Of a DNA stretch of 41,414 nucleotides, positions 5,109-12,705 are shown in pieces. Under the pieces are notes generated by a model. The model was given only the letters and a program-made list of their open reading frames with translations. It ran no database searches and was not told the origin of the DNA. Each line of letters opens with the position of its first letter. The stretch's first letter is position 1. Origin of the DNA: Mycobacteriales bacterium (GTDB lineage Bacteria > Actinomycetota > Actinomycetes > Mycobacteriales > CADCTP01); contig DASYKU010000095.1 of NCBI GenBank assembly GCA_035995165.1, positions 1-41,414 on the forward strand, given 5' to 3'. The position numbers and the translations under genes are program-made.

Positions 5109-5792
5109 TCAGGGCGCCTCGTAGCGGTAGCCGTAGCCGCGCAGGGTGGTGATGCGACCGGTGAGGCCGGCCTCGCCGAGCTTCCGCCGTACGGCCAGGA
5201 CGTGCATGTCGAGGGTCTTGGTCGAGCCGAACCAGTTCTCGTCCCAGACGTCGGACATCAGCCGCTCCCGGCTCAGCGCCTCCCCGGCCGAGCGGGCCAG
5301 CACGGCCAGCAGGTCGAACTCCCGCGGCCGCAGCGGCACCTCCACCCCGTCCACGGTGACCCGGCGGCTGCCCGGGTCGACCAGCAGCGGGCCGACCCCG
5401 ATCGGCGGCTCGGGGGCCGGCTCGGAGTTGCCGCGGCGCAGGTGGGCCCGGACCCGGGCCAGCAGCTCGGTCAGCCGGAACGGCTTGGTCAGGTAGTCGT
5501 CGGCCCCGGCGTCCAGGCCGAGCACCACGTCGATCTCGTCCGTACGGGCGGTGAGCATGACGATCACCACGTCCGGCAGGGCCGAGCGCAGCTGCCGGCA
5601 CAGCGCGGTCCCGTCCAGGTCCGGCAGGCCGAGGTCGAGCAGGATCAGGTCGACCCGGGCCCCGCCGGCCATGTGCTCCAGCGCGGCCCGGCCGGTGCGG
5701 GCCCAGCGGACCCGGTGACCCTGGGTGGCGAGCGCGCCGGCCAGCTGGTCGCCGATGTCCGGGTCGTCCTCGACCAGGAGCAGCTCGGACAC
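5109..5792 (-). CDS. OmpR/PhoB-family response regulator
   Basis: A 227-residue DNA-binding response regulator. The receiver domain (residues about 1-115) has the acidic pocket Glu8-Asp9-Asp10, phosphoacceptor Asp53 in LILLDLGLP, Thr in VIVMLTA near 81, and Lys in YLTKPFR near 103. The C-terminal winged helix (about 130-225) contains LRPREFDLLAVLARSAGEALSRE and ends TLRGYGYRYEAP, the hallmark of OmpR-type effector domains. Start GTG 5790-5792 lies 7 bases after the stop of the sensor kinase gene, so the pair is an operon in kinase-regulator order, the reverse of the commoner order. It probably binds the phased GNTGACC repeats at 7340-7389. Confidence 0.95.
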   Translation of the reverse strand: MSELLLVEDDPDIGDQLAGALATQGHRVRWARTGRAALEHMAGGARVDLILLDLGLPDLDGTALCRQLRSALPDVVIVMLTARTDEIDVVLGLDAGADDYLTKPFRLTELLARVRAHLRRGNSEPAPEPPIGVGPLLVDPGSRRVTVDGVEVPLRPREFDLLAVLARSAGEALSRERLMSDVWDENWFGSTKTLDMHVLAVRRKLGEAGLTGRITTLRGYGYRYEAP

Positions 5793-5799
5793 GCAGCGA

Positions 5800-7398
5800 T
5801 TATGCCGCCGTCCACGACCGAAGGATCAGACTCACCACCGGCCCCGCCCCGGGCTGGCCTCCCGGCCCCGTTCCGGGCCCGGCTCCCGGCCCCGCCTCGG
5901 GCCCGGCTCCCGGCCCCGCCTCGGGCCCGGCTTCCGGCCCCGCCTCGGGCCCGGCTTCCGGCCCCGTTCCGGGCCCGACTTCGGGGCCGCGCAGCGGGCC
6001 GGAGCCGGGGTCGGTGACGACGAGGCGGGCGCCGATGGACTCGGCGAGATCGCGGGCGAGGGCGAGGCCGATCCCGGTGCCGCGAGCGCGAGGGTCCCCG
6101 CGGCGGAACGCGGCCGCGAGCCCGGCCGCGTCGAACCCCGGTCCCTGGTCGGACACGTCCACCGCGAGCCCGCCCCCGGCCGTGCGGACCGTGACCGTGA
6201 CCGTGCCGGCCCCGTGCGCGAGCGCGTTGGTGACCAGCACGTCCAGGACCTGGTGCAGGACCGCCGGGGTCGCCGCGGCCGGCGGCAGCCCGGGCTCGAC
6301 CCGGATCAGCGCCTCCCGGCCGCGGCCGGCCGCCAGCTCGGCCCAGCGGCCGGCCCGGGCCGACTCGACCAGCGTGCCCAGGTCCACCGGCCCGACCGGC
6401 GCGAGCGGGTCGCGACCGCGGGCGATCAGCTCGTCGACGGTCGACTCGACCCGGTCGGCCCGCGCCAGCGCCTCCCGGATCGCGGCGTCCCGGTCGGCGG
6501 TGGGCGTCAGCAGCGTCCGTTCCAGGCCGAGCCGGAGCGCGGTCAGCGGCGTACGGACCTGGTGGGAGGCGTCCGCGGCCACCGACCCGGCCCGCTCCAG
6601 CAGGCCGCCCAGCCGCCGGGCCGTGGCCCGCAGCGCCCGGCCCGCCTCGGCCGCCTCGTAGAGCCGGGACGACCGCGGCTCGACCGCGAAGTCGCCCTCG
6701 CCGAGCGCGTGCGCGGCCCGGGTCAGCTCCTCCAGCGGGGCCGCGATCCGGCCGGCCTGGCGGCGGGCCAGCAGGGCCGCGACCGCGAGCACGAGGACCG
6801 CGAGCACGGCCATCGCCCCGAACGTGGCCCAGGTCCGGTCCAGCACCCGGTCGTACGCGACCGCGGCCCGGACCACCACGTCCCGCCCGCCCGACCGGAC
6901 CGGGACGGCGACGGCCAGCTCGCCGCCGGAGAGCTCCTGCTCCTCGTCCCGGCCCGCGCCGACGGCGACCGCGAGGGCGCTGTGCGCGGGGCCGGTGCCG
7001 GTCAGGCGGGTGCCGCCGGCGTCGTACACGGCCAGGTGGGTCTCCGGGCGCCGGGGTTCGGGCAGGCCCGCGCCCAGGCCGGAGGTGTCGCCGGACAGGG
7101 ACCCGGCCGCCCGGCTGGCCTCGGCGGACAGGCGGGCGGCGGCCTCGCCGCGGTAGAGCCGGGCCGCCGCGATCGCCAGCGGGACCGCGAACAACGTCAC
7201 CGCGAGGACGGCGACGACGAGGATCGCCGAGCCGACCGCGCGCCGCACCGGCACCAGCCGCCCGTCCTCGTCCCGCCGAGGCCCCGGCACCGGCCCGGGC
7301 GCGGGGTCCGGAGGGGCGACGGGGGGCGGGGGAGCGGGCGTTGACCGTCCGCTGACCTCCGGTACCGGCGCCGTTGACCGGCGCTGACCTAGCGTCAT
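5800..7398 (-). CDS. Sensor histidine kinase with Gly/Pro tetrapeptide-repeat insertion near C-terminus
   Basis: A 532-residue membrane sensor kinase. A proline-rich cytosolic head (1-50) precedes membrane helix 1 (about 55-80). A periplasmic sensor (about 82-190), helix 2 (about 192-212) and a HAMP-like linker follow. The H-box DASHQVRTPL carries the phosphoacceptor His279. The N-box LVTNALAHG, G1 box DVSDQGPGFD and G2 box GTGIGLALAR are all present. The strange part is residues 469-520: thirteen xxGP tetrapeptides (mostly EAGP and GAGP) sit between LVVTDPGSGP and VVSLILRS, i.e. before the last beta strand of the ATPase domain. ATG 7396-7398 is used here, but no ribosome site is evident and the true start could be a GTG near residue 49, which would leave the operator repeats non-coding. 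Confidence 0.92.
   Translation of the reverse strand: MTLGQRRSTAPVPEVSGRSTPAPPPPVAPPDPAPGPVPGPRRDEDGRLVPVRRAVGSAILVVAVLAVTLFAVPLAIAAARLYRGEAAARLSAEASRAAGSLSGDTSGLGAGLPEPRRPETHLAVYDAGGTRLTGTGPAHSALAVAVGAGRDEEQELSGGELAVAVPVRSGGRDVVVRAAVAYDRVLDRTWATFGAMAVLAVLVLAVAALLARRQAGRIAAPLEELTRAAHALGEGDFAVEPRSSRLYEAAEAGRALRATARRLGGLLERAGSVAADASHQVRTPLTALRLGLERTLLTPTADRDAAIREALARADRVESTVDELIARGRDPLAPVGPVDLGTLVESARAGRWAELAAGRGREALIRVEPGLPPAAATPAVLHQVLDVLVTNALAHGAGTVTVTVRTAGGGLAVDVSDQGPGFDAAGLAAAFRRGDPRARGTGIGLALARDLAESIGARLVVTDPGSGPLRGPEVGPGTGPEAGPEAGPEAGPEAGPGAGPEAGPGAGPGTGPGGQPGAGPVVSLILRSWTAA
5839..5994. repeat. 12-bp tandem repeat inside the histidine kinase gene
   Basis: Thirteen consecutive 12-bp units encode xxGP tetrapeptides (4 perfect EAGP in a row plus GAGP, GTGP, EVGP, LRGP and GGQP variants). 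The central copies are nearly identical at DNA level, with alternating cggccccgcctc and gggcccggctcc blocks on the plus strand. The length is a multiple of three, so copy-number change would not shift the reading frame. Confidence 0.9.
7340..7389. promoter_or_regulatory. Phased direct repeats, probable response-regulator operator
   Basis: Four heptamers on the plus strand, GTTGACC (7340), GCTGACC (7351), GTTGACC (7373) and GCTGACC (7383), are spaced 11, 22 and 10 bases, i.e. on one face of the helix. OmpR/PhoP-family regulators bind such direct repeats with about 11-bp spacing; the Streptomyces PHO-box unit GTTCACC is very similar. The site lies between the divergent two-component operon and a small membrane-protein gene. 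It is inside the kinase frame if the first ATG is used. Confidence 0.6.
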
Positions 7399-7465
7399 GT
7401 CCGTCTACCGCGGCCGGCATCGGCGCCAGCACCACACCGATCGCCCGCACCCGCCGAGGAGCCCG

Positions 7466-7927
7466 GTGACCGAGTCCGTCCCACCCGCACACGGTCCCAC
7501 GCCCGGTTCCGTATGCCGCCGCGGTGCCGGGATCGTCGCACTGCTGCTGCTCGCCGGCACGCACGTCGCCCCGCTGCGGACCGGCGGAAGAGCCGCCTAC
7601 CTGGACGCCGGCCTGGCCACGGTCGCGGCCGCCGCGCTGCTCACCGCCGGCCTGCTCGCCGCCCGGGACACCCGCTGGGACTGGTACGGCGCGGGCCTGC
7701 TGGCCGCCGCGGCCCTGGCCGGCTACCTGGTCAGCCGCGGCATCGGCTGGCCCGGCGCCAGCACCGTCGTCGGCCACTGGAGGTCCCCGGCCGGCACCGC
7801 GGCCGTCGCCGCCGACCTGCTCACGCTGGCCGTGGTGGCGGCCGGGCCGGTCAGCGAGCGGCACGCAGGAGCGGCACGAACAGAACCAGGGCGACCGCCT
7901 GGACCGTCCCCACGAACGCGACCGTGA
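7466..7927 (+). CDS. Small membrane protein of unknown function
   Basis: A 153-residue protein with four hydrophobic segments and no recognised catalytic motif. The third segment is followed by YLVSRGIGWPGASTVVGHW. This resembles a loop (YxxSRxxGLPG...GNW) that I associate with many uncharacterised actinobacterial four-helix membrane proteins. GTG 7466 is chosen because AGGAG lies 5 bases upstream; an in-frame ATG at 7397 would overlap the kinase start codon and lacks a ribosome site. It is divergent from the two-component operon and shares its operator region, so it may be a target of that system. The last 25 codons overlap the 3' end of the convergent MFS gene by 77 bases. Confidence 0.65.
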   Translation: MTESVPPAHGPTPGSVCRRGAGIVALLLLAGTHVAPLRTGGRAAYLDAGLATVAAAALLTAGLLAARDTRWDWYGAGLLAAAALAGYLVSRGIGWPGASTVVGHWRSPAGTAAVAADLLTLAVVAAGPVSERHAGAARTEPGRPPGPSPRTRP

Positions 7928-9047
7928 CGCCGAGGCCGTGCTCGTAGAGCAGGCCGATCAGCGCCGCGCCGGCCAGCCAGGCCAGGCCGTACACGGCGGT
8001 GAAGGTGCCGTAGCCGGCGCCGCGGCGGTGCGCCGGGACGAGGTCGGCGACGGCGGCCCGCATGGTCGAGTCGTGCACGCCCATGGCGGCGCCCCAGACC
8101 ACCGCGCCGGCCACGAACAGCCCGGTCGTCGCGGAGAACGAGAGCAGCGGGACCACCGCGGCCAGCGGCGGCAGCACCACCAGCCCGCGCAGCCCGATCC
8201 GGTCGTAGACCCGGCCGAAGGCGACGGCGGCGATCGCGGCCGCGGCCATCGCCACCGCGTACAGGACCGGGACGAGCGGGGTGGCGAGCAGGTGCCGGCT
8301 GGTGAGGTGGAAGGCGAGCACGGCCCAGGTGGAGAAGCCGAGCATGGTGGTCGCGGAGAACGCCGCGTACTGCCAGAACCGGCGCGGCAGGCCGGCCTCC
8401 AGCCGCAGCCGTTTCTTCTCCGGGACCTCCACGGCCGGCTCCCAGACCGCCGGGTCCGGCGCCCGGCGGCGCAGCCGGGCCAGCGCCGCCAGCGCCAGCG
8501 CCCCCGGTACGGCCAGCAGCCCGAACGCCAGCCGGTACCCGCCGCCGAGCGCGATCGTCGCCGCGATCAGCAGCGGCCCGGTCATCGCGCCGACCTGGTC
8601 GACCGCCTCGTGCAGCCCGAAGGCGTAGCCGCGGCCGAGCTTCGCCGAGGCATGCGCGAGCATCGTGTCCCGGGCCGGGGTCCGCACCGCCTTGCCGACC
8701 CGCTCGCCGTTGTAGAGCAGGCCGGCCGCGGTCAGGCCGCCGGCCAGCGCGAGCAGCGGTACGCAGACCGCGGTCAGCCCGTAGCCGAGGATCGTCTGCG
8801 GCCAGGGCCGCCGGGACCGGTCCACGAACCGGCCGGTGACCAGCCGCAGCACCAGCGCGGCCGCCTCCCCGGCGCCGGTGACCAGCCCGACGACCGCGGC
8901 GGTCGCGCCGAGCGAGCCCAGGTACGGCCCGATGATCGAGCGGGCGCCCTCGTAGACCACGTCGGCCAGCGCGGAGACGATCCCGAAGCCGACGACGAAC
9001 CGGACCGGGCTGATCCGGTTGGCCGCCGGCTCAGGTCGGGGCGGCAC
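7851..9047 (-). CDS. MFS transporter, last gene of the envelope-lipid operon
   Basis: A 398-residue major facilitator superfamily protein with twelve hydrophobic segments. The loop between helices 2 and 3 reads GRFVDRSRRPWP, a version of the MFS GxxxDRxGRR motif. A long charged central loop (RRRAPDPAVWEPAVEVPEKKRLR) divides the two halves. The substrate is unknown. Start GTG 9045-9047 overlaps the stop of the PAP2 gene by 17 bases, so it is co-transcribed and perhaps translationally coupled with it. It may be a passenger or may export a product of the operon. Confidence 0.9.
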   Translation of the reverse strand: MPPRPEPAANRISPVRFVVGFGIVSALADVVYEGARSIIGPYLGSLGATAAVVGLVTGAGEAAALVLRLVTGRFVDRSRRPWPQTILGYGLTAVCVPLLALAGGLTAAGLLYNGERVGKAVRTPARDTMLAHASAKLGRGYAFGLHEAVDQVGAMTGPLLIAATIALGGGYRLAFGLLAVPGALALAALARLRRRAPDPAVWEPAVEVPEKKRLRLEAGLPRRFWQYAAFSATTMLGFSTWAVLAFHLTSRHLLATPLVPVLYAVAMAAAAIAAVAFGRVYDRIGLRGLVVLPPLAAVVPLLSFSATTGLFVAGAVVWGAAMGVHDSTMRAAVADLVPAHRRGAGYGTFTAVYGLAWLAGAALIGLLYEHGLGVTVAFVGTVQAVALVLFVPLLRAAR

Positions 9048-9774
9048 GTTCGGCGGCGGCCAGCGGCCGGGGCGCCGGCGCCCACCGCAGCACGCCGGTC
9101 GCGGCGGTCGCGGCCAGCGCGACGGCCACCCCGGCGACGACGTCGAGGGTGTAGTGGTTCGCGGTGGTGACCGTCACCGCGGCGGTGATCAGCGGGTAGA
9201 CGGCGGCCCCGATCTTCCGTACGCGGCCGGTCAGGACCGTGCCGGCCAGCACCGCGACCCAGGTCGCCCAGGCCAGGTGCAGCGAGGGCATGGCCGCGAA
9301 CTCGTCCGGGGACACCGGTCCGGCCGGTCCGGTGCCGAGCCCGGCCGCGGCCAGCGAGTCGACGAACCCGCCGCCGGGCAGCAGCCGCGGCGGCATCACC
9401 GGGTAGACCAGGAAGACCGCCAGCCCGACCAGGTTGATCGCGACCAGCGCGGTCCGGGCCGGCCGGTACGCGTCCGGCCGGAACCACCAGCACCAGGCCA
9501 GCAGCCCGATCGTGACCGGGATGTGCGCGAACTGGTACCAGCCGCCGGCCAGCAGCTCGAACAGCCCGTGCCGGGACAGCCAGTCGTTCGCCGGGTGCTC
9601 GAGGTCCAGGTGCAGGACCCGCTCCAGCGCGAGCACGTCGTCCGCGTGCCGCTCGGCCTCGCCGCTGCGGGTCGCGGCCAGCCGGCGGACCCAGTCGTAC
9701 ACCCGCACCAGCAGGAGCACGACGACGATCTCGCCGAGCAGGTACGGCCGGACGCGGTCGCGGCGCAATCCCAT
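9031..9774 (-). CDS. PAP2-superfamily membrane phosphatase/phosphotransferase
   Basis: A 247-residue membrane protein of the PAP2 superfamily, resembling the inositolphosphotransferase/AUR1-like branch. The second phosphatase motif is PSLHLAWAT (Ser and catalytic His) and the third is ANHYTLDVVAGV (His and Asp). The preceding FLVYPVMPPRLLPGGGFVDS is typical of this branch. The first motif (KxxxxxxRP) is not obvious, as is common there. About six membrane helices are present. Start ATG 9772-9774 overlaps the stop of the preceding flippase-like gene in a TGATG arrangement, so translation is coupled. Family members dephosphorylate lipid phosphates or transfer phospho-head groups at the outer membrane face, which fits the neighbouring glycosyltransferase and flippase-like genes. 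Confidence 0.88.
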   Translation of the reverse strand: MGLRRDRVRPYLLGEIVVVLLLVRVYDWVRRLAATRSGEAERHADDVLALERVLHLDLEHPANDWLSRHGLFELLAGGWYQFAHIPVTIGLLAWCWWFRPDAYRPARTALVAINLVGLAVFLVYPVMPPRLLPGGGFVDSLAAAGLGTGPAGPVSPDEFAAMPSLHLAWATWVAVLAGTVLTGRVRKIGAAVYPLITAAVTVTTANHYTLDVVAGVAVALAATAATGVLRWAPAPRPLAAAERAAPT

Positions 9775-10739
9775 CAAATGATGCGGCGTTTCACGAGCAC
9801 CCCGAGGGTCCAGGCGCCCGGCACGAGCGGCACCCACACCGTGAGGAACCGGTACGCCAGCAGCCCGCCCACGGCCGCCGGCACCGTCAGGCCGGACGCG
9901 ACCAACGCGGCTCCGAGCACGACGTCCAGGCTACCGATGCCGCCGGGTGACGGGATCAGCGCGCTCAGCGCGGACGAGCCGAGGTAGACCGCCAGCACCA
10001 CCCCGAGCGGGAGCGGGCTCCCGACCGCGTGCAGGACGCCGTACAGGACGATCCCGTGCACGACCGGCAGGGCGAGCGCGCCGGCCCAGAGCTGGGCCGC
10101 CCGCCGCGGGTGGGTGGCGACCGCGGCCAGCCGGCGGTACTCCTCGACCACCCGGACCCGCACCGCCCGCAGCGGCCGCCGGGCCAGCACCGCGGCGGCG
10201 GCCAGCACGACCAGGACACCGGCCAGCACGAGGCCGCCGGACCCGTCGGAGAGCCGGTCGACCCGGGTGCTCGCCTCCGTCCGCAGCGCCGGCGGGGCGA
10301 ACGCGATCGTCGCCACCAGCAGCGCCAGGTGGGTCACCGCGCCGGCGCTGGCGTTCAGTGCCTGGCAGGCGAACGCGGCGTCGCGGGTCATCCCCTGCCG
10401 GCGCAGGAACCGGACGTTCACGGCCAGCCCGCCGGCCCCGGCCGGCAGCACGTGGTTGACGAACGAGCCCGCGACCTGGACCGCGAACAGCCGCAGCAGC
10501 GGCGGCCGGTCGGCCAGCACGCCCATCTGCATGACCGTCCCGGAGATCCAGATCAGGCAGGCGGCCGCGGCGGCGAAGATCAGCCACTCGCCGTCCGCGG
10601 CCAGCAGCTGGCCGGCCCCACCGGCCAGCGCGGACCGGTGCAGCACCGCGACGACGACCGCGCCGAGCGCGACCAGCCCGGCCAGCCCGGTGGTCACCGG
10701 CGAGATCCGGCCGTCCTCGATCGGGTCGAGCGCGGTCAC
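9774..10739 (-). CDS. YbhN/UPF0104 flippase-like membrane protein (LPG_synthase_TM)
   Basis: A 321-residue polytopic membrane protein of the family named after the transmembrane half of lysylphosphatidylglycerol synthase (MprF). Typical features are SFVNHVLPAGAGGLAVNVRF near residue 90 with QGMTRDAAF after it, and SALIPSPGGIGSLDVVLGAAL near 250 with its conserved P-G-G-G-E/D-like turn. Around eight helices are present and the protein ends in a short basic tail (VKRRII). Known relatives flip or transport lipids or are found with GT4 and dolichol-type glycosyltransferases. GTG 10737-10739 overlaps the glycosyltransferase stop by a GTGA junction; the gene ends in a TGATG junction with the PAP2 gene. 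Confidence 0.88.
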   Translation of the reverse strand: MTALDPIEDGRISPVTTGLAGLVALGAVVVAVLHRSALAGGAGQLLAADGEWLIFAAAAACLIWISGTVMQMGVLADRPPLLRLFAVQVAGSFVNHVLPAGAGGLAVNVRFLRRQGMTRDAAFACQALNASAGAVTHLALLVATIAFAPPALRTEASTRVDRLSDGSGGLVLAGVLVVLAAAAVLARRPLRAVRVRVVEEYRRLAAVATHPRRAAQLWAGALALPVVHGIVLYGVLHAVGSPLPLGVVLAVYLGSSALSALIPSPGGIGSLDVVLGAALVASGLTVPAAVGGLLAYRFLTVWVPLVPGAWTLGVLVKRRII

Positions 10740-11848
10740 CGCCGGGCCCCGGTGAGCGGACGGGGCATGCCCAGCAGCGCCGCCGCCTCGTCGTACGCGG
10801 CGGCCGAGCGGGCCAGCACCGCGTCCCAGCTGATCGGGCAGGGCGTCTCCCGGTTGTGCCGGGAGATCGACTCGCGCAGCGGCTCGTCGGTGGCCAGCCG
10901 GACCAGCTGCGCGGCCATCTGCTCGTCGGTGCCGGACAGCAGCCCCTCCTGCCCGTGCCGGACGAACTCGACCACCCCGGTCGAGGCCCGGGCCAGCACC
11001 GGCAGCCCGGCGCAGCGGGCCTCCAGCGCCGCGATGCCGAACGACTCCAGCCCGGCCGGCGCCACGAACACGTCGGCCGAGTGCAGCAGGCCGGCGACGA
11101 CCGAGCGCGGGGCACTGCCGGGAAGGGTCACCCACGGCATCATGCCGTGTTCGCGCAGGTACCGCTGGGCCGCCGGCCGGCGCGGTCCGTCCCCGAGCAC
11201 CACGGCCCGCAGCCGGATCGAGTCCGGGATCTCGGCCCGGGCCTGCCGCAGCATGCGCAGCAGCGGCAGGGTGCGCTTGCGAACGGTCAGCCGCATCACC
11301 GCGGCGATCACGATCGTGTCCGGGATCCGGGGCCGCCGCGGCTGGTCCCAGTCCCCCTGGTCGATGCCGTTGGGCAGCATCGTCACGGTGGTGCCGCGGG
11401 GGAGCATCCGGCGGACCGGGGCCGCGGCGGCCGCGCTGACCGCGGTCCAGCGGATCGGCAACCGGCTGATCCCGGCGACCGCGTCGACCGACCGGAAGAT
11501 CGGGGCCACGTACGCCCAGAGCGAGTGCACGGTCACCACGGTCGGGATGCCGGCCCGGGCGGCCGCGCCCGCGACCGAGAACGCCAGCGGCGAGCCCACC
11601 CCGACGTGCACGTGCACGGCGTCGAACTTCCCGCCCAGGACCGTACGGACGGCGGCGGCGGGGCGGCGTACCCGCGGGCCGCTCACCCGGTGCACCGGCA
11701 GCGGATCGGGCTCCGGTCCCGGGCCGGAGCCGGTGACGACCTCGACGGTGTGCCCGGCCGCCTGCTGGTGGCCCGCGAGCCCGGCGATCTGCAGCTCCAT
11801 CCCGCCGAGCCGCGGCAGGTACGAGTCGCTGACGTGCGCGATCCTCAT
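10736..11848 (-). CDS. GT4-family glycosyltransferase
   Basis: A 370-residue GT-B fold glycosyltransferase of family GT4. The N-terminal domain starts MRIAHVSDSYLPRLGGMELQ with the glycine-rich acceptor loop. VTVHSLW and LPNGID (near 190-215) mark the domain boundary. The C-terminal nucleotide-sugar site has GDGPRR near 260 and the E-x7-E motif in GLESFGIAALEA near 300. The donor is probably a GDP- or UDP-sugar; members include PimB/PimA mannosyltransferases, MshA and PIG-A. ATG 11846-11848 overlaps the PIG-L stop in an ATGA junction. The run of overlaps with PIG-L upstream and the flippase-like gene downstream argues for a joint pathway. Confidence 0.93.
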   Translation of the reverse strand: MRIAHVSDSYLPRLGGMELQIAGLAGHQQAAGHTVEVVTGSGPGPEPDPLPVHRVSGPRVRRPAAAVRTVLGGKFDAVHVHVGVGSPLAFSVAGAAARAGIPTVVTVHSLWAYVAPIFRSVDAVAGISRLPIRWTAVSAAAAAPVRRMLPRGTTVTMLPNGIDQGDWDQPRRPRIPDTIVIAAVMRLTVRKRTLPLLRMLRQARAEIPDSIRLRAVVLGDGPRRPAAQRYLREHGMMPWVTLPGSAPRSVVAGLLHSADVFVAPAGLESFGIAALEARCAGLPVLARASTGVVEFVRHGQEGLLSGTDEQMAAQLVRLATDEPLRESISRHNRETPCPISWDAVLARSAAAYDEAAALLGMPRPLTGARR

Positions 11849-12693
11849 GCGTCCTGCCGGACCGGCGTACGCAGCGAGGCGAAGACGTCGTCGGACAGCG
11901 GCGGGCCCGGGACCCGGCCGCGCTCGACGTACCACTCCCGGCCGAGGACGCGGGCGAACACCGGGCGGGGCAGCCGCAGCAGCACCGCCACCGTCCGGAT
12001 CCCGGTGTCGGCGCCGGCCTGGCTGGCGTGCGCGGCCAGCGCCGCCCGCTTCGCCGCCAGGTACGGCCGGACGTCCAGCTCGTGGGTCAGCTCCGCCCGC
12101 GGCGTGTACGCCCGGTCCAGCGCCGGCATCGACCAGCGCCGCCGCAGCACGGGCAGCCGGCGCAGCAGCCGGACCACCCGCAGCAGCGTGTCCCGGTCCA
12201 CGGTCGCCTCCAGCACGACCGGCGTGCCGGCCAGCGCCGCGGCCCGGACCCCGACCCGGTGCACCTGCACGTGGTCGGGGTGGCCGTAGCCGCCGGCCGG
12301 GTCGTACACGGTCAGCGCGTCGGCCCGCTCGGCCCGCAGGATCACGGCCACCTGCTCGGCCACGGCCTCGACGTCGGCGTCGGCGAACGCGCCCGGGACC
12401 CGGTGCGCACCGTCCATGCCGGAGTCGGCGTGGCCGAGCCAGCGCACGTCGTAGCAGCCGAGCGCGGACGCGGCCGTCTCCAGCTCCCGGACCCGGCGGT
12501 CGCCGAGCCCGTCCCGGCGGGCGGCGTCGGTCAGCCCGGCCTCGCCGCGGGTCGCGACGACCAGCACGACCCGGTGCCCCTCGGCCGCCGCGCGGGCCAT
12601 CAGGCCGCCGGTCAGCAGGGCCTCGTCGTCGGGGTGGGCGTGCAGGCAGACGAGGGTGCGGGAGGCCGCGTCGACCGCGGACGGCGTGGTCAC
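11845..12693 (-). CDS. PIG-L/LmbE-family N-deacetylase
   Basis: A 282-residue zinc-dependent de-N-acetylase of the PIG-L family, which contains MshB (GlcNAc-inositol deacetylase of mycothiol synthesis), Mca and eukaryotic PIG-L. The metal site is visible: AHPDDEALLTGG near residues 19-30 (His, Asp-Asp) and GHPDHVQVH near 150 (second His pair). It also has VVATRGEAG after the second strand, a family hallmark. The start GTG 12691-12693 is 6 bases after a TAGCGT element, so the operon mRNA is probably leaderless. First gene of the five-gene minus-strand operon. Whether it is the genome's MshB or a paralogue acting on a lipid-linked amino sugar cannot be told from the window. Confidence 0.92.
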   Translation of the reverse strand: MTTPSAVDAASRTLVCLHAHPDDEALLTGGLMARAAAEGHRVVLVVATRGEAGLTDAARRDGLGDRRVRELETAASALGCYDVRWLGHADSGMDGAHRVPGAFADADVEAVAEQVAVILRAERADALTVYDPAGGYGHPDHVQVHRVGVRAAALAGTPVVLEATVDRDTLLRVVRLLRRLPVLRRRWSMPALDRAYTPRAELTHELDVRPYLAAKRAALAAHASQAGADTGIRTVAVLLRLPRPVFARVLGREWYVERGRVPGPPLSDDVFASLRTPVRQDA

Positions 12694-12699
12694 GGCGCG

Positions 12700-12705
12700 A
12701 CGCTA
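12700..12705 (-). promoter_or_regulatory. -10 element of the PIG-L/GT4 operon
   Basis: Minus-strand TAGCGT lies 6 bases before the GTG start at 12693. The same hexamer and spacing recur upstream of the genes starting at 22145 and 39120. Confidence 0.55.

Follow-up and report, generated by a model that had tools for sequence, protein, structure and literature searches.

A conserved GT4 and PIG-L deacetylase gene pair with flippase-type and Aur1-like partners: a predicted module for glucosamine-bearing membrane lipids in actinobacteria

A 41,414-nucleotide contig of a Mycobacteriales bacterium (DASYKU010000095.1, assembly GCA_035995165.1; this whole stretch is referred to as the window) was found to carry overlapping minus-strand genes for a PIG-L family N-deacetylase, a family 4 glycosyltransferase (GT4), a UPF0104/MprF-type membrane protein, a PAP2_3 membrane protein and a major facilitator superfamily (MFS) transporter. 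By analogy with characterized operons, this module is probably an actinobacterial synthase-deacetylase-flippase set for a glucosamine-bearing membrane lipid that would be made inside the cell and flipped out. Its conserved core is GT4 plus PIG-L, with UPF0104 and PAP2 as optional members. The gene set, its linkage and distribution, the active sites and the independence from mycothiol synthesis were established here, while the substrate and product are predictions.

The PIG-L gene (12693-11845, GTG start) gave PF02585 as its sole Pfam match at E 0.001 (97.2 bits). It was followed on the minus strand by the GT4 gene (11848-10736, ATG start; PF00534 at 76 bits and PF13439 at 63 bits), the gene for the UPF0104 protein, a putative lipid flippase (10739-9774, GTG start; PF03706, LPG_synthase_TM, 102 bits), the accessory PAP2_3 gene (9774-9031, ATG start; PF14378, 152 bits) and the MFS gene (9047-7851, GTG start; PF07690, MFS_1, 106 bits). 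Pfam scores of all five proteins exceeded the gathering score. Read from the DNA, the junctions were ATGA for PIG-L/GT4 (4 bases), GTGA for GT4/UPF0104 (4 bases), TGATG for UPF0104/PAP2 (1 base) and a 17-base overlap for PAP2/MFS, in agreement with the five overlapping genes and the families named in a first-pass annotation of this DNA. That annotation had placed the operon at 7851-12705; the 7851 end was retained, and 12705 was found to include an upstream stop codon, the PIG-L start lying at 12693. Using our own gene caller, 5 of the 24 remaining same-strand junctions in the window overlapped by 1-20 bases, and four consecutive overlaps at this background rate would have a probability of about 0.002 (a rough figure). 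Close packing by itself is suggestive and no proof. Stronger evidence came from other loci, where 58 same-strand junctions joined module genes and 26 of them overlapped by exactly 1 or 4 bases (script-called starts).

The active sites of the GT4, PIG-L and PAP2 proteins are intact, as judged from alignments drawn from the fetched loci rather than from random family members. In addition to its PF02585 domain, the PIG-L protein carries the metal motifs AHPDDE (12622..12639, minus), in which each residue was kept in 91/91 rows (including H20, P21, D22, D23 and E24), and GHPDH (12271..12285, minus), in which G137, H138, D140 and H141 were each kept in 91/91. The GT4 protein combines GT4 domains with an E-x7-E motif (ESFGIAALE, 11021..11047, minus); R186, K191 and E268 were kept in all 82 aligned rows and E276 in 81. 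The PAP2 catalytic stretch (9142..9393, minus) consists of PPR (9385-9393), PSLH (9277-9288) and NHYTLD (9142-9159), with R130, P163-S164-L165-H166, N206, H207 and D211 kept in 21/21 rows.

In order to follow the module beyond the window, the PIG-L protein was compared with 61 genomes (the host and its relatives), where it matched 16 other places (E ≤1e-55, 45-64% identity), and the regions around all 16 were examined. Across a sample of 393 genomes of the class, PIG-L was present at 98 places in 95 genomes (E ≤1e-50) and GT4 at 81 places in 79 genomes (E ≤1e-45). PIG-L lay within 3 kb of 75 of the 81 GT4 places, and GT4 within 3 kb of 75 of the 98 PIG-L places. Both genes were carried by 76 genomes, GT4 only by 3, PIG-L only by 19 and neither by 295 (Fisher P 9e-59, uncorrected for relatedness). 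Eighty of the 98 PIG-L places were fetched and three more were among the earlier relative regions; the resulting set for profile searches held 91 loci (the window, three from Actinomadura, eight from relatives and 79 from the class sample). Within 8 kb of PIG-L, these loci contained relatives of GT4 (88), UPF0104 (48), PAP2 (17) and the DMT-type transporter that neighbours the module in the window (11), and PIG-L, GT4, UPF0104 and PAP2 occurred all together in 15. The set excludes L061-L068 and L152, whose PIG-Ls (45-53% identity) were dropped after no GT4 was seen alongside, while retained loci reach down to 44% identity; given this exclusion by outcome, the GT4 count of 88/91 is partly circular. 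With the nine set-aside loci restored the count becomes 88/100, and the 3-kb linkage counts from the 393 genomes are less biased than the 91-locus figures. Two loci are true exceptions without GT4 (L080 and L136), the absence from L118 is uninformative because this locus sits at a contig edge, and L087 and L088, with identical scores, look like near-copies. As controls, the surroundings of 13 other PIG-Ls (four paralogues from the host genome and nine of the set-aside group) were scanned and lacked a GT4 of the module type as well as any match at E 1e-3 to UPF0104, PAP2 or DMT.

The gene set is conserved and the gene order is not. One locus reads PIG-L, UPF0104, GT4, PAP2 (L053, overlaps of 4, 49 and 4 bases), two others read UPF0104, GT4, PIG-L, PAP2 (L078 and L086), and in Actinomadura PIG-L and GT4 are divergent, with PAP2 and UPF0104. 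The check for a conserved order that the first-pass annotation proposed thus gave a divided answer, in that the genes keep together while orders and strands are shuffled, and we do not take the shuffling as a refutation. The GT4/PIG-L pair is bordered by a miaA-like gene in 27 loci and by a dapF-like gene in 27 (both judged by eye), mostly with no UPF0104 nearby. This housekeeping-like, fixed setting was seen within L099-L150, most of all in families f46 and f49 (L126, L131 and L144 are examples), and hflX- and miaB-like genes (also by eye) were seen further out, chiefly in the same two families.

A GT4 acting before a PIG-L deacetylase is also the enzymatic logic of mycothiol synthesis (MshA then MshB), and the window PIG-L and GT4 might on this ground, and by family resemblance, be the organism's own mycothiol enzymes that overlap membrane genes by chance. 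This explanation is highly improbable. The host genome (5.37 Mb, 162 contigs) has five PIG-L genes and 21 matches to the MshA model, one of them above the cut-off, and its true enzymes were all located elsewhere: MshA on contig 152 (621.5 bits vs a cut-off of 462.5), MshB on contig 136 (381.6 bits vs 224.35) and Mca on contig 127 (479.2 bits vs 277.15). The window PIG-L as the genome's only MshB, a condition under which the first-pass annotation considered a dedicated lipid pathway unlikely, is ruled out by the MshA and MshB scores. The window proteins themselves fell below the curated cut-offs, PIG-L reaching 148.8 bits on the MshB model TIGR03445 (cut-off 224.35) and GT4 56.3 bits on the MshA model TIGR03449 (cut-off 462.5), although MshB was both the nearest curated model to the window PIG-L and its best relative by sequence in the PDB. 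The nearest NCBIfam model to the GT4 was BshA (73.6 bits vs 273.7). In a maximum-likelihood tree of 42 PIG-Ls, MshB and Mca grouped together (94/71) outside all others; the fork above all module rows had values of 91/97, neither fork was starred, and the placement of three long-branched rows including Mca is weaker. Two starred groupings, one of 10 and one of 18 module rows, included the window. The 31 module rows did not form a single clade, as L068, L152 and the GT4-less L136 were nested beside rows of family f45. Branching of the module PIG-Ls apart from MshB and Mca and conservation of the PIG-L/GT4 pair across the class both argue against a mycothiol role, and the proposal that this pair is distinct from mshA/mshB was upheld.

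The PAP2 protein was described in the first-pass annotation as having an AUR1/inositolphosphotransferase look, and structure prediction supports this as to fold. The model was predicted from nine sequences (pLDDT 76.4, pTM 0.75), and Foldseek matched it to LpxE, Aur1-Kei1 and an inositol phosphorylceramide (IPC) synthase. The best structural matches were IPC synthase 9vj4 (Z 17.7, 217 residues, 3.5 Å) and Aur1 9ivc (Z 17.3, 232 residues, 5.3 Å), with LpxE (Z 15.7), a Bacillus subtilis phosphatidylglycerolphosphate phosphatase (13.2) and PgpB 8bm3 (12.2) lower. The window protein thus combines a PAP2_3 domain and the His, His and Asp residues with an Aur1-like predicted fold, and differs from Aur1 and IPC synthase in having only about 20% identity and in scoring 28.5 bits on the curated phosphoinositol-dihydroceramide synthase model (cut-off 480). 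A phmmer search of the protein against PDB sequences gave 0 matches at E 0.01.

Across the 393 genomes, PAP2 alone matched in 150 at E 1e-25. The ten best places (window included, at least 189.7 bits) were all at PIG-L/GT4 loci, and the next, at 148.9 bits, was not; PAP2 is a dedicated partner that many module loci do without. Three PAP2-bearing loci (L044, L045 and L049) had been found via PAP2 itself and the window was the query, so that the unbiased PAP2 count is 13/87. In two Nocardioides genomes, PAP2 (L047 and L048) lies apart from the same genome's PIG-L/GT4/UPF0104 locus (L158 and L159).

The flippase-type partner was supported in part, as a UPF0104 relative accompanied PIG-L in 48 of the 91 loci and was not a fixed member. 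The window protein reached 40.7 bits on the MprF model (cut-off 600) and 25.1 bits on TIGR00374 (cut-off 43.2), below both cut-offs. At one locus (L056, 9899-12238, minus), a 780-residue protein beside the GT4/PIG-L pair matched the MprF/UPF0104 flippase region over residues 484-771 and appears to be such a protein fused to an extra N-terminal part. Another contig of the host genome (L162, G000:C148, 6601-8627) carries a second GT4 relative in two frames (profile positions 177-256 and 257-333) directly before a UPF0104 paralogue; the split points either to decay of a second copy or to an error in the sequence. DMT relatives occurred in 10 of the 90 loci besides the window, and since 7 of the DMT-bearing loci lack UPF0104, a DMT transporter possibly fits an alternative exporter role. 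In the window the corresponding DMT_1-type gene is a downstream neighbour (5090-4263, minus; NF038012, 32.5 bits vs a cut-off of 50) and a candidate for that role. The MFS transporter, listed as a pathway part in the first-pass annotation, was rejected as a module member, its relatives lying within 8 kb in only 2 of the 90 other loci.

We propose that the GT4 would act at the cytoplasmic face, where it would attach N-acetylglucosamine (GlcNAc), presumably from UDP-GlcNAc, to a membrane-lipid head group. Judged by its family and intact active site, PIG-L would then strip the acetyl group to leave a free amine, by which an anionic lipid would become zwitterionic. The UPF0104/MprF-type protein may turn the lipid to the outer leaflet where, if an Aur1-like PAP2 protein is present, its fold and motifs suggest that it could act from outside on the phospho-head group as a transferase or phosphatase. 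The glycosylated, de-N-acetylated lipid pathway of the first-pass annotation is therefore kept in outline, with the separate Msh enzymes, the UPF0104 partner and the Aur1-like PAP2 in its favour, and is given up as to the MFS protein and a fixed flippase and PAP2.

Several observations weigh against this proposal. No UPF0104 relative was present within 8 kb in 43 of the 91 loci and no PAP2 in 74, so that the core is limited to GT4 and PIG-L, which could use a soluble acceptor. Twenty-three of the 98 PIG-L places (E 1e-50) had no GT4 match (E 1e-45) within 3 kb, and one Frankiaceae metagenome-assembled genome carries PAP2 without such a PIG-L at E 1e-40. UPF0104 was less specific to the module (of its 8 best places other than the window itself, 5 were at PIG-L/GT4 loci), has the above paralogue at 50% identity elsewhere in the host genome, and gave a predicted structure too poor for fold comparison (pLDDT 50.5). 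The window GT4 scored 36.0 bits on the GlcNAc-phosphatidylglycerol (GlcNAc-PG) synthase model NF053787 against a cut-off of 480, and hence is no GpgS, the GT4 of an operon compared below; of six other module GT4s, four reached 43-55 bits on this model (best 54.7) and two were absent at E 1e-10.

GT4 and PIG-L could instead build the amino sugar on a carrier, polyprenyl-phosphate or other, which after flipping would pass it to a wall polymer, with PAP2 recycling the lipid pyrophosphate. UPF0104 and DMT-type proteins can flip sugars linked to carriers, and the PAP2 model also matches PgpB, which is described as a phosphatase of the C55 lipid pyrophosphate (C55-PP; Z 12.2, 8bm3). However, PAP2 fits Aur1 and IPC synthase better than PgpB, and no outer transferase, ligase or polymerase was seen by eye, without a profile scan, in the 40 largest neighbour clusters; we consider a carrier route unlikely. 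A soluble product, in which GT4 and PIG-L would be paralogues of MshA and MshB that act on a new acceptor and the MFS protein would export a glucosaminyl small molecule, accords with the affinities of PIG-L to MshB and of GT4 to BshA among curated models, with MshB as the best PDB relative of PIG-L, and with the 43 loci that lack a nearby UPF0104 relative. It is quite unlikely, as the MFS protein is unconserved, membrane partners (UPF0104, PAP2 or DMT) recur, and the same 40 clusters, inspected by eye, held no thiol-pathway gene beyond a CysS/MshC-like gene, which adjoins 5 loci of family f29 (by eye).

The module is widespread in actinobacteria, over many families. PIG-L and GT4 were carried by four Actinomadura genomes (in the fourth, GT4 is cut by a contig edge), the module by two Nocardioides genomes, and PIG-L, GT4 and UPF0104 together by Nonomuraea gerenzanensis (L161, NZ_LT559118.1) and by a genome inferred to be Thermobispora (G473). 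Deposited as a plasmid and annotated with just 10 features, the Nonomuraea record spans 11.85 Mb and is presumably the chromosome. Loci of family f29 align with it over kilobases, pieces longer than 1 kb having 82-88% identity in L092 and 77-88% in L094 (both genus g106). A search started from the Nonomuraea GT4 gave matches (E 1e-60) in 76 of the 150 genomes of its family, G473 among them, and in 30 of 64 genera.

Since Lechevalier in 1977, actinomycetes have reportedly been classified by glucosamine-containing phospholipids (GluNu, phospholipid type PIV), and presence of the module in Nonomuraea and, by inference, Thermobispora suggests a link to these 'unknown glucosamine phospholipids'. 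Actinomadura and Nocardioides, which we take to have a phospholipid type without glucosamine lipids, nevertheless carry the module, which argues against the link. Microbispora belongs to the same family as Nonomuraea. In the available part of one report, Microbispora is given as type IV, with glucosamine-containing compounds of unknown kind and no phosphatidylglycerol (PG) (PMC8049491), and glucosamine lipids of this sort are mentioned in the available parts of reports on Intrasporangium (PMC3035309), Saccharomonospora xinjiangensis (PMC4585250) and Pseudonocardia (PMC11533595). If a further, loosely worded literature report holds, we infer that PG is an unlikely acceptor in the lineage concerned, with phosphatidylinositol (PI) or another lipid favoured. 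A tentative proposal of low probability is that the module is the GluNu gene set and the lipid a glucosaminyl-PI, made via the first two steps of glycosylphosphatidylinositol (GPI) anchor synthesis, flipped by UPF0104 and, where PAP2 is present, completed outside by an Aur1-type phosphoinositol transfer. This estimate is a joint one for the GluNu link and the PI-based structure, and the link serves as a lead. Titles and abstract openings of the open-licence literature yielded no gene assignment for actinomycete glucosamine phospholipids, and a search for the structure of GluNu turned up nothing useful.

Downstream of the module lies a two-component system (regulator and histidine kinase, 5109-7398), which was rejected as a module part. 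Counting the window, 6 of the 91 loci had a regulator relative (at least 150 bits) within 8 kb and 3 had a kinase relative, counts that we estimate, without computation, to be no higher than a genome with tens of two-component systems would give. The C-terminal tail of the kinase (window 5800-6010) is a long repeat rich in Gly-Pro-Glu-Ala. A small plus-strand frame with membrane-type stretches (7397-7927) lies between the MFS and kinase genes and overlaps the MFS end; NCBIfam profiles gave no match to the plus-strand frame 7463-7924. A defence-system reading, prompted by a weak GT4-conflict Pfam match, was rejected, as PADLOC returned no match for any of the five proteins.

Synthase-deacetylase-flippase operons for amino-sugar lipids are described in the available parts of reports on two distant bacteria, published in 2023 and 2025 (PMC10128005, PMC12713373). 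New here is the same predicted plan built with a different deacetylase family, across many actinobacterial families, at times joined by an Aur1-like partner. If true, the module would offer gene candidates for the glucosamine phospholipids recorded in taxonomy for decades and listed there as 'unknown', and the lipid structure, a role in membrane charge and a link to cationic antibiotics would become testable via single deletions.

At the start of GPI anchor synthesis, PIG-A, a GT4, adds GlcNAc to PI and PIG-L deacetylates the product. The window pair shares this order of GT4 and PIG-L steps and differs in that no later GPI-type steps were seen and PI is here a putative acceptor. According to the available part of the report, the hexSDF genes of Clostridioides difficile, which adjoin HexRK, code for a synthase together with a polysaccharide deacetylase and an MprF-like flippase; aminohexosyl-hexosyl-diradylglycerol and resistance to daptomycin and bacitracin depend on them (PMC10128005). 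The proposed likeness extends over the synthase, deacetylase, MprF-like flippase, an N-acetyl intermediate and an adjoining two-component system. However, the annotation of HexS is monogalactosyldiacylglycerol synthase, that of HexD is polysaccharide deacetylase, and the two-component system of the window, which would have matched HexRK, is no conserved partner. Closest in plan is gpgSDF of Pseudomonas aeruginosa, described in the available part of its report as one predicted operon in which a GT4 is combined with a COG3233 deacetylase and with a UPF0104 (AglD2/YbhN) flippase; mutants and expression in Escherichia coli indicated GlcNAc-PG and then glucosaminyl-PG (GlcN-PG) as products, with the flippase step given as unverified (PMC12713373). 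The window likewise has a GT4 beside a deacetylase and a UPF0104 gene in the operon, and differs in having PIG-L (PF02585) and no COG3233 deacetylase and in adding PAP2_3 and MFS genes. Given a deacetylase from a different family, a GT4 scoring far below the cut-off of the GlcNAc-PG synthase model and an added Aur1-like PAP2 protein, the module is set apart from gpgSDF membership by sequence, and by analogy it would work like gpgSDF.

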